This document shows, piece after piece, positions 53,953 to 58,398 of a stretch of 64,000 nucleotides of DNA (position 1 is the stretch's first letter; every line of letters begins with the position of its first letter). A model generated the notes under the pieces. The model ran no database searches. It was given only the letters and a program-made list of their open reading frames with translations, and had not been told where the DNA came from. Source of the stretch: Modestobacter sp. DSM 44400 (GTDB lineage Bacteria; Actinomycetota; Actinomycetes; Mycobacteriales; Geodermatophilaceae); NCBI RefSeq assembly GCF_900107175.1, contig NZ_FNOZ01000009.1:62001-126000 (forward strand), written 5' to 3'. The translations under genes were made by a program, and so were the position numbers.

Positions 53953-55419
53953 TCATGCCTCCGTCGGCTCACCGCCCCGTCCGGCCACCCTGAGCCCGTA
54001 CTGGGCGATCTTGCGGTAGAGCGTCGCCCGGGACAGTCCGAGCTCGGTGGCCGCTTGCAACACCGTGGTGCCCGGGTGGGTCAGGCAGCGCAGGATCTCG
54101 TCCCGCTCGAGCTGTTCCAACCGCGTCAGCGACCGCGAGCCGGAGCTCAGCACCGCCGGCCGAAGGTGGCCCACGTCGGTGCGCGCGACGGCCTCCCGGA
54201 CGACGGAGCGCAGCTCGCGGACGTTCTCCGGCCAGGCGTACCCCGCCAGGGCCCGGACGGCGCGGGGCGTGAACTGCACGTCGCGGTGCCGCAGCTCCCG
54301 GGCGAAGGAGCGGGCCAGCGGCTCGACGTCCTCGGGGCGGTGCCGCAGCGCCGGGACCTCGACGACGGCGTCCACCACCGCCGCGAGCGGTTCGGGCACC
54401 GCCGCGAACGACGGCGCGGTCAGCACCGCCGGGCGGACCACCCCCGGCTGCGCCGCCGAGAGCACCGCGGCCAGGTCGTCGGCGGCCCAGGCCGGGAGGG
54501 CGTCGGCGCCGGAGACGACCACGCAGGTGTCCCGGGCGCTCAGCTCCGGGGCCCACAGGGCCAGCCAGGAGTCCACGTCGACAGCGGCCGGTGGCCGGGC
54601 GACGAGCACCCGCTCACGCCGGCGGCCGCCGTGCCGGGCCAGCGTGGCCACCGCCGCCTTGCCCGCCCCCGGCTCCCCCACCACGGCGAGCAACCGGCCG
54701 GCCGTGACCGCCTGCCGGGCCGCCGCCACGGCGTCCCGCCAGGCCCGGGAGGGACACGGGTCGGCACCGGGCAGCCGGTCGGCGAAGACGTGGAACACCT
54801 CGCCGCGGGGCATCGGCCGCACCGGGTGACCACCGGCCCGCACGTGCATCAGGGCGCTGGTGTTGCCGGCGGCGGACTGGGCCAGGGCCAGCAGCAGGTC
54901 CGAGGAGGCGTCGGACCAGGTGGTCATGTTGATGCTGCCCACCAGGCTCCCGGTGCGCGAGTCGAGGACCGGGACGGCTGCGCAGGTGTACCGGCGCAGC
55001 GGTGCCACGAAGTGCTCTCCGGCGCGGACCAGCGAGGGCACCCGGTCGGCCAGGGCGAGCGCGAGCCCGTTGGTGCCGGCGGTCCGCTCGCCGAAGTAGA
55101 AGCCCGGGGCGAGGTGCACCCGGTCCAGCGAGCGGTTGATGTCCGAGTCGCCGGACCAGCGGGCCAGCACGAGGCCCTCCGCGTCGGTGATCATGAGCCC
55201 GACGGGCTCGTTCACCAGGGTTCCGTGCAGGTGTTCCAGCACCTCGGCGCCGCACTCGTAGAACAGCGAGTCCGTGGGGACCGCGTCGGTGAAGACCGCC
55301 TCGACCGCTTCCGGGGACACCCCGTAACGCTGGCTGCGCACCCAGGACGCCTGCACCCGCGGCCGGGCAACGCCGCCATGGCGGCCGGTTCCAGCCAGTT
55401 GAGCAGGGCCGTCGGGCAC
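53953..55419 (-). CDS. GAF/Fis-type activator, MimR/AcoR-like
   Basis: This 488-residue regulator has an N-terminal SWxRSQxYGVSPE-type start, a GAF sensor domain at ~60-190 (VGLMITDAEGLVLARWSGDS, FGERTAGTNGLALALADRVP), a degenerate AAA domain (LAVVGEPGAGKAAVATLARH) and a Fis-type HTH (TVLQAATELGLSRATLYRKI). The AAA domain has no GAFTGA motif, so it should act with a sigma70-type factor rather than sigma54. It is divergent from the amidohydrolase/MIP18/ADH operon, the same arrangement as mimR beside mimABCD in mycobacteria. A perfect TGTCTC-N5-GAGACA operator lies between them. Confidence 0.87.
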   Translation of the reverse strand: MPDGPAQLAGTGRHGGVARPRVQASWVRSQRYGVSPEAVEAVFTDAVPTDSLFYECGAEVLEHLHGTLVNEPVGLMITDAEGLVLARWSGDSDINRSLDRVHLAPGFYFGERTAGTNGLALALADRVPSLVRAGEHFVAPLRRYTCAAVPVLDSRTGSLVGSINMTTWSDASSDLLLALAQSAAGNTSALMHVRAGGHPVRPMPRGEVFHVFADRLPGADPCPSRAWRDAVAAARQAVTAGRLLAVVGEPGAGKAAVATLARHGGRRRERVLVARPPAAVDVDSWLALWAPELSARDTCVVVSGADALPAWAADDLAAVLSAAQPGVVRPAVLTAPSFAAVPEPLAAVVDAVVEVPALRHRPEDVEPLARSFARELRHRDVQFTPRAVRALAGYAWPENVRELRSVVREAVARTDVGHLRPAVLSSGSRSLTRLEQLERDEILRCLTHPGTTVLQAATELGLSRATLYRKIAQYGLRVAGRGGEPTEA

Positions 55420-55460
55420 GGGGACCTCCGAACGCCTCGTTGCGTCCTGCCGACTGTAGG

Positions 55461-55477
55461 TGTCTCAAAATGAGACA
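55461..55477. promoter_or_regulatory. Perfect inverted repeat, probable MimR-type operator
   Basis: tgtctcaaaatgagaca is a perfect 6-5-6 inverted repeat located 42 bases from the regulator start and about 30 bases before a possible -10 (TAGCGT, 55509-55514) of the amidohydrolase operon. That puts it just upstream of the -35 region, a usual position for an activator. It may also autoregulate the regulator. Confidence 0.7.
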
Positions 55478-55568
55478 GCACACCCCGTCCACCGGCGCCG
55501 CGTGGGCCTAGCGTGACGATTGTGTGATCCAGCTCGCACCCGACGAGCCGGCCGGTCGAGGAGGAACC

Positions 55569-56612
55569 GTGTACAGCAAGGACGGCGAGAACTACTTCAT
55601 CGTGGACGCCCACGTCGCACTCTGGGACGCCCGCCCGGAGAACCAGCTCAACGTGCACGGCAAGCAGTTCATCGACTGCTTCTACGACTACCACCGCAAC
55701 CTCAGCCCGGAGTCCGAAGTCTGGCCCTACGAGGAGTACCTCTACCAGGGCGGCGAGCGGCTGATGAAGGACCTGTTCACCGACGGCTACGTCGACCACG
55801 CGATCTTCCAGCCCGCCCGCCTCGCCGAGTTCTACGCGAAGGGCTTCGGGCAGACCGAGGAGGCGTTCGCGCTCAGCCAGGCGAACCCGGACAAGCTGAC
55901 CTACAACCACTGGTTCGACCCCCGGGACGGCGAGCGCGGGCTGGACCAGCTGCGTGCCGACGCCGAGCGCTTCGGCCTCACGGGCGTGAAGCTCTACACC
56001 GCCGACTGGCACGGCGACTCCCGCGGCTGGAAGCTCAACGACCCGACGGCCTACCGGTACTTCGAGGTCTGCCGGGAGCTGGGCATCCGGAACATCCACG
56101 TGCACAAGGGCCCGACCATCCGCCCGCTGGACCGGGACGCCTTCGACGTCGCCGACGTCGACCACGTGGCCACCGACTTCACCGACCTGAACTTCATCGT
56201 CGAGCATTGCGGGCTGCCCCGGCTCGAGGACTTCTGCTGGATCGCCACCCAGGAGCCCAACGTCTACGCCGGTCTGGCGGTGGCGATCCCGTTCATCCAC
56301 ACCCGGCCGCGCTACTTCGCCCAGATCATGGGTGAGCTTCTGTACTGGCTCGGTGAGGACCGGATCTTCTTCTCCAGCGACTACGCGCTGTGGACGCCGA
56401 AGTGGCTCATCGAGAGCTTCGTGGACTTCCAGATCCCCGAGGACATGAGCGAGTACGGCCCGCTCACCACGGCGCAGAAGAAGAAGGTGCTCGGGCTCAA
56501 CGCCGCCAAGATGTACGACATCCCGGTGCCGGCCGAGCTGCAGCTGCCCGACGCCGACGAGACCGCGACCGGGCCACGGCAGCCCGAGAGCGCCGACCTG
56601 GCGATGGCCTGA
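55569..56612 (+). CDS. Amidohydrolase-2 family protein of the propane/acetone monooxygenase accessory set
   Basis: This 347-residue TIM-barrel amidohydrolase starts at a GTG right after GAGGAGGAACC. Features: ENYFIVDAHVALWDARPENQ, GFGQTEEAFALSQANPDKLT, GLTGVKLYTADWHGDSRGWK, IHVHKGPTIRPLDRDAFDVA and DRIFFSSDYALWTPKWLIES. It matches the protein encoded between the monooxygenase genes and the ADH in mim/prm clusters; its role there is unsettled but has been linked to activity of the diiron oxygenase or to intermediate processing. The monooxygenase genes usually found directly upstream are absent here. It is coupled to the MIP18-like gene (TGATG overlap). Confidence 0.88.
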   Translation: MYSKDGENYFIVDAHVALWDARPENQLNVHGKQFIDCFYDYHRNLSPESEVWPYEEYLYQGGERLMKDLFTDGYVDHAIFQPARLAEFYAKGFGQTEEAFALSQANPDKLTYNHWFDPRDGERGLDQLRADAERFGLTGVKLYTADWHGDSRGWKLNDPTAYRYFEVCRELGIRNIHVHKGPTIRPLDRDAFDVADVDHVATDFTDLNFIVEHCGLPRLEDFCWIATQEPNVYAGLAVAIPFIHTRPRYFAQIMGELLYWLGEDRIFFSSDYALWTPKWLIESFVDFQIPEDMSEYGPLTTAQKKKVLGLNAAKMYDIPVPAELQLPDADETATGPRQPESADLAMA

Positions 56613-57376
56613 TGACGGCGGTCCTGACGGCGGTGACCGAGGACGACGTCCGCACCGCGCTGGGTTCCGTCGTCGACCCGGAGCTGGACGAGCCGATCAC
56701 CGACCTGGGCTTCGTCCGCTCGGTCGCCGTCGACGGCGGGACGGTGGAGGTGCACCTCCGGTTGCCGACGTCGTTCTGCGCGCCGAACTTCGCCTGGCTG
56801 ATGGTCTCCGACGCCCGGGACGCCGTCGCGGGCGTGCCCGGGGTCGGACGGGTGGTGCTCGAGCTGGACGACCACTCCGACTCCGACCTGATCAACGCGG
56901 GGCTGGCCGCTGACGCCGGCTACCGGGGCACGTTCGGGCACGAGGCCGAGGAGAGCCTGGACGAGCTCCGGGCGACCTTCCAGCGCAAGGCCCACACCGC
57001 GGCGATGGAGCGGGCGCTCACCGCACTGCTGCGCGCCGAACCGGTCCGGACCGAGGCCGACCTGGGCGAGGTCACGCTGGCCGACCTCCCCGCCGGGCCC
57101 ACCACCGAAGCGCTGCTCCGCCGGCGGGCCACCCTCGGCCTGCCGGTGGACGGGAGGGCGCCGGTCCTGGTCGACGCCGCCGGCCGGCGGCCCGACCGGG
57201 CCGAGGTGCCGCTGGCGGTGCGTAAGGCCCGGTCGGTCCGCATCTCGATCGACGGCAACGCGCACTTCTGCCGCGGGCTGCTCGCCACCCGCTACCCCGG
57301 CGCGGAGGACGACCAGTTCCCTCGCGCCGACGACCGTCCCCTCCTCCCCGTCCTGGTCCAGGAAGTGAGCTCATGA
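56612..57376 (+). CDS. MIP18/DUF59 iron-sulfur assembly-type protein
   Basis: This 254-residue protein has an N-terminal MIP18 domain at ~10-100: VRTALGSVVDPELDEPITDL, GFVRSVAVDGGTVEVHLRLP and TSFCAPNFAWLMVSDARDAV with one conserved Cys. A helical C-terminal half follows (DADSDLIN-like segment DDHSDSDLINAGLAADAGYR). MIP18-like proteins assist Fe-S or metal insertion. The long C-terminal extension is the form found in mim/prm clusters beside the amidohydrolase. Its start overlaps the previous stop by one base and its stop overlaps the ADH start by 4 bp, so the trio is tightly coupled. Confidence 0.85.
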   Translation: MTAVLTAVTEDDVRTALGSVVDPELDEPITDLGFVRSVAVDGGTVEVHLRLPTSFCAPNFAWLMVSDARDAVAGVPGVGRVVLELDDHSDSDLINAGLAADAGYRGTFGHEAEESLDELRATFQRKAHTAAMERALTALLRAEPVRTEADLGEVTLADLPAGPTTEALLRRRATLGLPVDGRAPVLVDAAGRRPDRAEVPLAVRKARSVRISIDGNAHFCRGLLATRYPGAEDDQFPRADDRPLLPVLVQEVSS

Positions 57377-58398
57377 AGGCCGTCCGAGTCACCGGTTACC
57401 ACCAGCAGCTGCAGATGGACGACGTCCCGGTCCCCGAGGCGACCGGTCCGCACGACGTCGTCGTGAAGATCGGTGGCGCCGGGGTGTGCCGCACCGACCT
57501 GCACATCCTCGAGGGGCAGTGGGCGGAGAAGTCGCAGGTCGCGCTGCCCTACACGATCGGCCACGAGAACGCCGGGTGGGTGCACGAGGTCGGCTCGGCG
57601 GTGACCAACGTGGCGGTCGGTGACAAGGTGATCCTGCACCCGCTGGTCACCTGCGGGCTCTGCCGCGCCTGCCGGGCCGGGGACGACGTGCACTGCGAGA
57701 ACTCGCAGTTTCCCGGCATCGACAGCGACGGCGGGTACGCCGAGTACCTCAAGACCTCAGCGCGCAGCTGCGTGAAGATCGACGACTCCCTGGAGCCCGC
57801 CGACGTCGCTGCGCTGGCCGACGCCGGCCTCACCGCTTACCACGCGGCGGCGAAGGCAGCCAGGCGGCTGCGCGCCGGGGACCGGTGCGTGATCATCGGC
57901 GCCGGCGGCCTGGGACACATCGGAATCCAGGTGATGGACGCCATCTCGCCTGCCGAGCTGATCGTCGTCGACCGCAACCCCGACGCGGTGAAGCTGGCGC
58001 TGTCGATCGGCGCCAGCCACGGGATCGTGGCCGACGGCAGCCAGGTCCAGCAGGTGCTCGACCTGACTGGTGGACACGGCGCCGAGGTCGTCATCGACTT
58101 CGTCGGCGAGGGCGGTTCGACGAAGGAGGGGCTCGCGATGACCCGGCGGGCGGGCGACTACCTGGTCGTCGGCTACGGGGAGAACGTCGACGTACCGACC
58201 ATCGACCTGGTCTCCGCCGAGATCAACATCATCGGCAACCTCGTCGGCAGCTACAACGACCTGGTCGAGCTGATGGCCCTGGCTGCGCAGCACAAGGTCC
58301 GGCTGCACACCGCGAAGTACGCGCTGGACGACTTCCAGTCCGCGATCGACGACCTGGACGCCGGCCGGGTCCGCGGCCGGGCGATCCTGGTGCCCTGA
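57373..58398 (+). CDS. Zinc-dependent alcohol dehydrogenase
   Basis: This 341-residue MDR alcohol dehydrogenase shows the catalytic zinc site in GAGVCRTDLHILEGQW and IGHENAGWVHEVG (GHE motif), the structural zinc cysteines in TCGLCRACRAGDDVHCENS, and the NAD turn CVIIGAGGLGHIGIQVMDAI followed by LIVVDRNPDAVKLALSIGAS (Asp: NAD preference). The same type of ADH ends the mim/prm clusters, where it oxidises the alcohol formed from propane or similar. Here it would oxidise a short-chain alcohol supplied from elsewhere. A strong hairpin terminator follows immediately. Confidence 0.9.
   Translation: MKAVRVTGYHQQLQMDDVPVPEATGPHDVVVKIGGAGVCRTDLHILEGQWAEKSQVALPYTIGHENAGWVHEVGSAVTNVAVGDKVILHPLVTCGLCRACRAGDDVHCENSQFPGIDSDGGYAEYLKTSARSCVKIDDSLEPADVAALADAGLTAYHAAAKAARRLRAGDRCVIIGAGGLGHIGIQVMDAISPAELIVVDRNPDAVKLALSIGASHGIVADGSQVQQVLDLTGGHGAEVVIDFVGEGGSTKEGLAMTRRAGDYLVVGYGENVDVPTIDLVSAEINIIGNLVGSYNDLVELMALAAQHKVRLHTAKYALDDFQSAIDDLDAGRVRGRAILVP

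Follow-up and report, generated by a model that had tools for sequence, protein, structure and literature searches.

A monooxygenase-free amidohydrolase–DUF59–alcohol dehydrogenase block in Modestobacter and its predicted operator, shared with mim/prm loci

The window analyzed here is a 64,000-nucleotide stretch from Modestobacter sp. DSM 44400, and its subject is a four-gene block at 53953–58398, in which a regulator gene is divergent from a three-gene operon related to the accessory genes of the mim/prm propane/acetone monooxygenase loci. The regulator (REG; 53953–55419, minus strand) is an AAA_lid and Fis-type helix-turn-helix (HTH) protein with a P-loop-like GEPGAGKA sequence. The operon, on the plus strand, encodes an Amidohydro_2 (PF04909, E = 9.4e-51) TIM-barrel amidohydrolase (AMH; 55569–56612), a DUF59/MIP18-like protein with a helical C-terminal extension (56612–57376), and a medium-chain zinc alcohol dehydrogenase (ADH) of 341 amino acids, kin to the ADH of mim loci (57373–58398). 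In the gap between REG and AMH lies the palindrome TGTCTCAAAATGAGACA (55461–55477, no strand), with the core GTCTCA-N3-TGAGAC at 55462–55476, referred to here as the operator. Below, AMH-DUF59-ADH is called the trio or cassette, and REG plus the trio the detached block; L-numbers and G-numbers are our labels for fetched loci or stretches and for genomes, respectively, and the window's genome is G000.

The AMH and DUF59 genes overlap by 1 base (TGATG), and the DUF59 and ADH genes by 4 bases (ATGA); because of these stop/start overlaps, the translational coupling of the three genes can be regarded as real. An earlier reading of the letters without database searches (the sequence-only reading) had given the coordinates and outline identities of the four genes correctly, as judged from the open reading frames (ORFs) and Pfam, and the tightly coupled operon divergent from the regulator that it described was confirmed by the two overlaps, as was the intact operator by the palindrome at 55461–55477. 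The listed ORF begins at 55524 (362 amino acids), and AMH probably starts instead at the GTG at 55569 (VYSKDG..., 347 amino acids), which has GAGGAGG just upstream; many AMH relatives can be aligned only from residue 10–16 onward.

The accessory cassette of a mim/prm locus is thus present in the window, and the hydroxylase is absent from the genome. G000 is a draft of 5.0 Mb in 182 contigs with a completeness of 99.93%, and a search of it with the PF02332 profile, which is matched by both MimA and MimC, gave no match; 14 control genomes were also silent, and the same search was positive in 25 of 296 genomes of the class. A MimA protein query likewise had no match in G000, whereas close MimA proteins (75–91% identical) were found in 12 of the 59 genomes of the relatives set, a thirteenth match (G041) being only 29% identical. 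G000 encodes two GroELs on contigs other than that of the trio, each with 54% identity to the L032 MimG, and no MimG-type GroEL stands beside the operon. The missing monooxygenase reported for the locus by the sequence-only reading, which had proposed a whole-genome search for the Mim proteins, was therefore borne out at the level of the genome, as was the missing GroEL at the level of the locus, and the monooxygenase is absent from G000 rather than moved. In the window's genus, 15 of the 17 module-bearing genomes, G000 included, lack MimA, the exceptions being G002 and G003; these MimA-less carriers include the one- or two-contig genomes G007, G014, G017, and G020.

To place the block, we collected the best 80 matches to AMH among GTDB species genomes, with stretches of up to 10 kb on each side, some of them short at contig ends. 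These AMH relatives were 81–92% identical and came from at least 24 genera, counted as the named genera in the titles of the matches listed, including Modestobacter, Geodermatophilus, Klenkia, Nocardioides, Arthrobacter, Herbiconiux, Cryobacterium, Janibacter, Rhodococcus, Mycolicibacterium, Kribbella, and Promicromonospora. By tblastn, AMH and DUF59 were present in 80/80 loci and ADH in 78/80 (the contigs of L037 and L082 end first). A divergent REG adjoined AMH in 77 of the 80; the exceptions are L099, which lies at the edge of a contig, L031, where a mim-type regulator of the same orientation takes its place, and L032, where this position is occupied by another gene. Flanking genes varied between genera, and MimA-B-C lay inside only 2 of the 80 fetched stretches (L032 and L043). 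GroEL genes near the block in seven loci (L070, L072, L076, L088, L097, L105, and L109) were considered as linked MimG and rejected, being 47–52% identical to the MimG of L157, a value that resembles the 54% identity of the G000 GroELs to another MimG.

Purifying selection, for which the sequence-only reading had proposed a test, was evident for all four genes wherever orthologs were compared. Against Modestobacter-type loci, NG86 ratios of nonsynonymous to synonymous substitution (dN/dS), which may be biased by the synonymous sites of a GC-rich genome, were 0.12–0.33 for AMH (n = 10), 0.20–0.46 for DUF59 (n = 9), 0.17–0.39 for REG (n = 7), and 0.13–0.25 for ADH (n = 7). Left out of these ranges are the replaced ADHs (L038 and L039) and the L031 regulator, which is of mim type, and the high ratios came from exactly these comparisons of replaced genes (0.74–0.75 and 0.96, respectively). 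The comparisons indicate that the block is old and widespread and is conserved in sequence and order.

The operator was conserved as consistently as the genes. Allowing up to two substitutions, GTCTCA-N3-TGAGAC was found in 110 of 110 REG–AMH gaps (74 exact, 30 with one, and 6 with two substitutions), against 0.65 gaps expected from mono-shuffled sequences, and it lay 73–130 bases (median, 89) upstream of the start taken for AMH. The pattern tried initially, TGTCTC-N4..6-GAGACA, had matched 108 of the 110 gaps (1.15 expected), or 101 of 103 distinct gaps. The palindrome also preceded mimA, a feature that the sequence-only reading had missed: it was present in all 62 loci with readable upstream sequence, out of 64 in total (0.85 expected). 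As a negative control, the region upstream of AMH within mim operons gave 1 weak match in 54. G000 has one exact core site in its 5.0 Mb, at the AMH promoter of the window. Among the 23 genomes of the genus, 15 of the 17 module carriers had a single exact site, located in every case at the AMH promoter; of the remaining two, G011 had a site with one mismatch, and G003 (Modestobacter lapidis) had the variant GTCCCA-N3-TGGGAC upstream of both AMH and mimA. No site was found in the six genomes of the genus lacking the module, two of which (G015 and G019) are only 70–72% complete. These patterns show that the detached trio and the monooxygenase share one operator sequence, situated in each case upstream of the first gene of the operon. 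The mim side of it may already be known, since PMC4428276 mentions a conserved palindrome covering the −35 box of prmA, although its sequence is absent from the text. As a separate observation, L363 (G038) has an exact site near an aldehyde dehydrogenase-like gene, named by reading, away from the mim locus.

REG and the regulators of mim loci appear to be related and distinct. At E = 0.001, the Pfam matches of REG were AAA_lid_14 and HTH_8 and no other family, and a search for the string GAFTGA in REG found none. Its N-terminal part gave a partial match to the NCBIfam model DhaR (best stretch, residues 47–193), far below the model cut-off, and a GAF domain was called in the mim-linked regulator of L157, unlike in REG. 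The description of REG as a GAF-AAA-Fis protein without GAFTGA in the sequence-only reading therefore stands for the AAA and Fis parts and the missing GAFTGA, and not for the GAF domain. In a quick tree, which carried a long-branch warning and some truncated mim rows, 25 REG and 24 mim regulators fell on the two sides of one branch (SH-aLRT 100), so that REG is not a member of the mim clade. The recognition-helix text RAT(L/I)YRKI was common to both groups in most of the rows printed.

A similar separation was seen for AMH. The H-x-H motif is part of the Amidohydro_2 metal site, and some members of the family vary it. In the AMH of the window, the motif is incomplete, because residue 32 (numbered on the 362-amino-acid reading), the second His of D-x-H-x-H, is Ala (D-A-H-V-A). 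Ala32 was present in 109 of 109 readable detached loci, or 99 of 99 distinct AMH cores (the 110 detached loci comprise 100 distinct cores, some genomes being present under two identifiers), whereas His32 was present in 53 of 56 mim-linked loci. Ala32 was not accepted as strictly diagnostic of detached loci, because the mim-linked L032, L253, and L315 also have it. In the AMH tree, a quick tree of 71 of the 176 AMH loci (L001–L030 excluded) with a long outgroup row and column 32 kept, the detached AMHs formed one group together with two mim-linked rows, L253 and L032 (SH-aLRT 93). Its neighbors on the tree were the mim-linked AMHs from family f8, probably the Mycobacteriaceae of GTDB; it lay within a 54-row group (SH-aLRT 100) that left other mim-linked lineages outside, and the label "detached" required 3 changes on the tree versus 23.9 when shuffled. 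The detached AMHs thus appear to be a clade of their own marked by H32A. The sequence-only reading had called the locus an orphan and had raised loss or relocation of the monooxygenase as one possibility; neither the orphan label nor a recent loss or relocation was supported, given a block conserved in 24 named genera with its own REG clade and its own H32A AMH clade. A third arrangement, ADH-AMH-DUF59 without REG, occurred in L190–L194 (four f34 genomes and one f31 genome); these genomes were not among the PF02332-positive ones, and their AMHs had His32 in 5/5 cases.

The predicted structure of AMH was a TIM barrel (pLDDT 86.5) with a Z score of 24.8 to 3irs, and its nearest neighbors were 3irs, lactonases, and decarboxylases. 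The AMH profile had only two matches among PDB sequences (E = 0.13 and 0.66), and a phmmer search of the same sequences with AMH gave none. Cys56 and Cys220 of the DUF59 protein (PF01883, E = 9.4e-18, residues 10–81) were invariant in a 48-row alignment; the two structure alignments had 47 and 48 rows, the AMH of L199 being omitted because its matched stretch ran past the stop at its natural end. The N-terminal part of the DUF59 model had the MIP18 fold, its best fold matches being DUF59 structures over 76–128 columns, and the Foldseek matches gave no convincing cover of the helical C-terminal part. The ADH has ADH_N and ADH_zinc_N domains and, in agreement with the kinship to mim/prm accessory genes proposed by the sequence-only reading, was 78–79% identical to the ADHs of the mim clusters L156 and L157. 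Its nearest solved structures, matched over the full length, include Rhodococcus ruber ADH-A (2xaa) and Aeropyrum pernix ADH (1h2b).

Detached blocks also coexist with mim clusters that lack these genes, a situation missed by the sequence-only reading. In nine genomes (G037, G052, G046, G280, G484, G595, G655, G677 [Mycobacterium AT1], and G680), a mim cluster with GroEL and without AMH and a close ADH, as judged within the stretch fetched, was accompanied by a detached block elsewhere. The operator was present on both sides in all nine, in some with mismatches, and in 9/9 MimG was retained in the mim cluster and not beside the trio. The mim cluster of G484 (L246) keeps a DUF59-like match (45% over 180 amino acids), AMH and ADH being gone, and those of AT1 and G680 contain an ADH that is only distantly related (30%). 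PMC6849523 reports that AT1 grows on propane and that its first three accessory genes have a separate chromosomal location; we found this block in L104, with divergent REG, AMH, DUF59, ADH, Ala32, and an exact operator, and the mim cluster in L371. In family f8, at E = 1e-100, AMH was found in 60 of 61 MimA genomes versus 28 of 290 genomes without MimA (Fisher p = 1.4e-44, uncorrected for relatedness), and 27 of these 28 showed REG and Ala32, L294 lying at a contig edge. The sole f8 MimA genome without AMH at this threshold, G633, has in L263 a MimA of 75–76% identity and a nearby ADH match that is 77% identical to the window's ADH. In G144, which carries a complete mim locus (L159) as well, L198 contains REG and AMH and no DUF59 or ADH match, possibly a redundant block that is being reduced.

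Exchange was seen at the level of single genes as well. In five Geodermatophilus/Blastococcus blocks (L040, L041, L046, L053, and L099), ADH was 83–85% identical to the mim-cluster ADH of L207, from the same family, and only 62–64% identical to that of the window, whereas AMH was 84–88% identical to the window's, indicating that ADH has been exchanged, by replacement in place, between detached and mim loci. Within the window's genus, an Ala32 AMH neighbors mim genes or a mim-type regulator in G002, G003, and G022: G002 has mimA, a mim-type regulator, and AMH together, and the trio of G003 lies 6.3 kb from mimC. In the latter (L032:4060–21039 and L333), mimABC-GroEL is convergent with the trio, REG is replaced by a FAD-binding oxygenase-like/FAA hydrolase pair, and both operators are changed alike. 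From the trans arrangements, the ADH exchange, and the docked Ala32 trios, the detached and docked trios look interchangeable.

The genes following ADH differed between lineages; for each kind named here from a profile, one member was scanned. An ABM-type gene was present in 18 of the 80 detached stretches (e.g., L066:12945–13268), a glycerol dehydrogenase in a three-locus cluster (L051, above the NCBIfam cut-off), and an acetoin reductase in a two-locus cluster (L078, just above the cut-off); the latter two would fit alcohol/hydroxyketone chemistry. A DUF1097 membrane protein gene followed ADH in a nine-locus cluster (L047:12848–13372 and eight others), and transketolase-like genes, named by reading their translations, occurred in nine stretches (cluster c7).

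On balance, we think that the block is probably a self-standing small-alcohol/ketone cassette, organized as a one-operator regulon, on which mim clusters can draw. Of the two possibilities raised by the sequence-only reading, an independent job is the one supported by the conservation of the block and by its own REG and AMH clades. REG would bind GTCTCA-N3-TGAGAC between REG and AMH and, upon a small-molecule signal, would switch on AMH-DUF59-ADH. The same cassette serves group 5 propane/acetone monooxygenase loci, and here, where the monooxygenase is missing, it would most likely handle small alcohols, ketones, or hydroxyketones from other sources (2-propanol/acetone/acetol or vicinal diols). 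This substrate range is suggested by the finding that propane metabolism in Gordonia TY-5 depends on the ADH of its locus (Kotani 2003, as reported in PMC6849523), by the strong induction of the Mim cluster of DSM 45062 on acetone and 2-HIBA, with Adh1 and an amidohydrolase-like protein among the abundant proteins (PMC7176365), and by the dehydrogenase and reductase neighbors described above. Several points weigh against it. REG binding, the inducer, and the substrate class are what we infer, and so are the supply of metal from DUF59 to AMH and the place of AMH in the pathway. REG and the mim regulators match only partially (34–40%), so a shared operator is no proof of a shared signal, and exact sites occur outside modules in G036, G040, G037, and G038, with no common gene recognizable by eye at the sites concerned (L346, L363, L364, and L365). 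H32A removes a canonical metal-ligand position, and the activity of the detached AMH may differ from that of the mim-linked form. The glycerol dehydrogenase and acetoin reductase neighbors occur in just 3 and 2 loci. Furthermore, the 80 loci were the best AMH matches, so the conservation of Ala32 and of context was partly selected for, and several of the nine trans genomes were chosen because their matches looked unlinked, so that nine is not a rate.

A bolder version, which we regard as a tentative possibility, makes the trio the core: a widespread and self-sufficient pathway with its own regulator, in which a remodeled H32A AMH with DUF59-supplied metal would perform an undescribed hydroxyketone or alcohol reaction, and group 5 monooxygenases would dock in cis or in trans via the shared operator. 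DUF59/MIP18 proteins are, as a family, carriers of Fe–S clusters or metals. This, together with the occurrence of AMH in 60 of the 61 f8 MimA genomes and the DUF59-like match retained by the G484 mim cluster after the loss of AMH and ADH, would suit a maturation set in which AMH and DUF59 (with REG) build or metal-load an oxygenase, the client being MimAC in mim loci and another metalloenzyme here. We nevertheless consider this rather unlikely, because the block is kept in G000 without any PF02332 protein, ADH, an ordinary enzyme, is retained in the same coupled operon, and MimG, the chaperone reported to be essential to Mim (PMC6849523), accompanies mim and not the trio in all nine trans cases.

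AMH could itself be an amidohydrolase-related dinuclear oxygenase such as AibH2, PtmU3, or SfbO, metal-loaded by DUF59, in which case the monooxygenase would not be missing. These enzymes belong to the same Pfam family (PMC10811679), a metal carrier is encoded in the operon, and the AMH model matches AibH1H2 (8ful), 6m1w, and the amidohydrolase-related oxygenase structures 8sm7/8sm8, among many hydrolases and decarboxylases. However, 8sm7/8sm8 rank below 3irs, the lactonases, and the decarboxylases; the metal ligands of AibH2 are D25, H27, H211, E265, D337, and H340 (PMC7782822), and D286 of AMH is followed at +3 by Leu where D-x-x-H has His, as judged by motif and not by superposition. The operon also contains no Rieske or reductase gene, and we consider this explanation improbable. 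It is quite improbable, too, that the block is a remnant of a lost mim operon, intact by chance: sister genomes carry the trio next to mim genes (G002 and G003), and the operator is the one found at mimA, but the low dN/dS ratios, one conserved operator, a dedicated regulator clade, and at least 24 named genera argue otherwise, and the mim-docked state looks derived in the genus, with a mim-type regulator replacing REG (L334 and L337). That mim genes are present and fall in an assembly gap of the 182-contig draft is hardly credible, given its completeness, the failure to find either hydroxylase subunit, and the 15 of 17 carriers without MimA, one- or two-contig genomes among them.

The reading as a self-standing cassette matters because the amidohydrolase and DUF59 genes are unexplained members of propane/acetone monooxygenase operons, and a monooxygenase-free form with an apparent single-site regulon makes the role of the trio testable apart from the oxygenase. 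Where mim and the trio lie apart, the shared operator predicts that they are co-regulated, and it offers a means of locating the two in genome sequences. PMC4428276 has already described the accessory genes found at prm/mim loci and a divergent Fis-type regulator, and among the articles consulted a detached trio appears only in PMC6849523, for Mycobacterium AT1, where the section concerned gives its different location, and not the regulator clade, operator, or spread. In the open literature searched, we came across no description of the detached block as a conserved regulon, of the two-sided operator, or of the H32A clade.

Among known systems, AibH2/PtmU3/SfbO share the PF04909 barrel with AMH, which, judged by motif, appears to lack the D-x-x-H His and has no Rieske or reductase partner in its operon, and R. 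ruber ADH-A and A. pernix ADH are of the same family as the window's ADH, not the same enzyme. The mim/prm loci of Mycobacterium, Gordonia, and Rhodococcus (group 5 soluble diiron monooxygenases [SDIMO]; PMC4428276 and PMC6849523) have the same three enzymes in the same order, a divergent Fis-type regulator, and the same operator sequence ahead of the gene that opens the operon, and an ABM-type gene is found in both (in prm according to PMC4428276). They differ from the window's block, which has no monooxygenase, reductase, coupling protein, or GroEL, whose regulator and AMH fall in other clades, and which has Ala32 instead of His32. Whereas the window's genome has no mim cluster, AT1 has one elsewhere, and the detached trio of AT1 (PMC6849523) belongs to the same block as that of the window.

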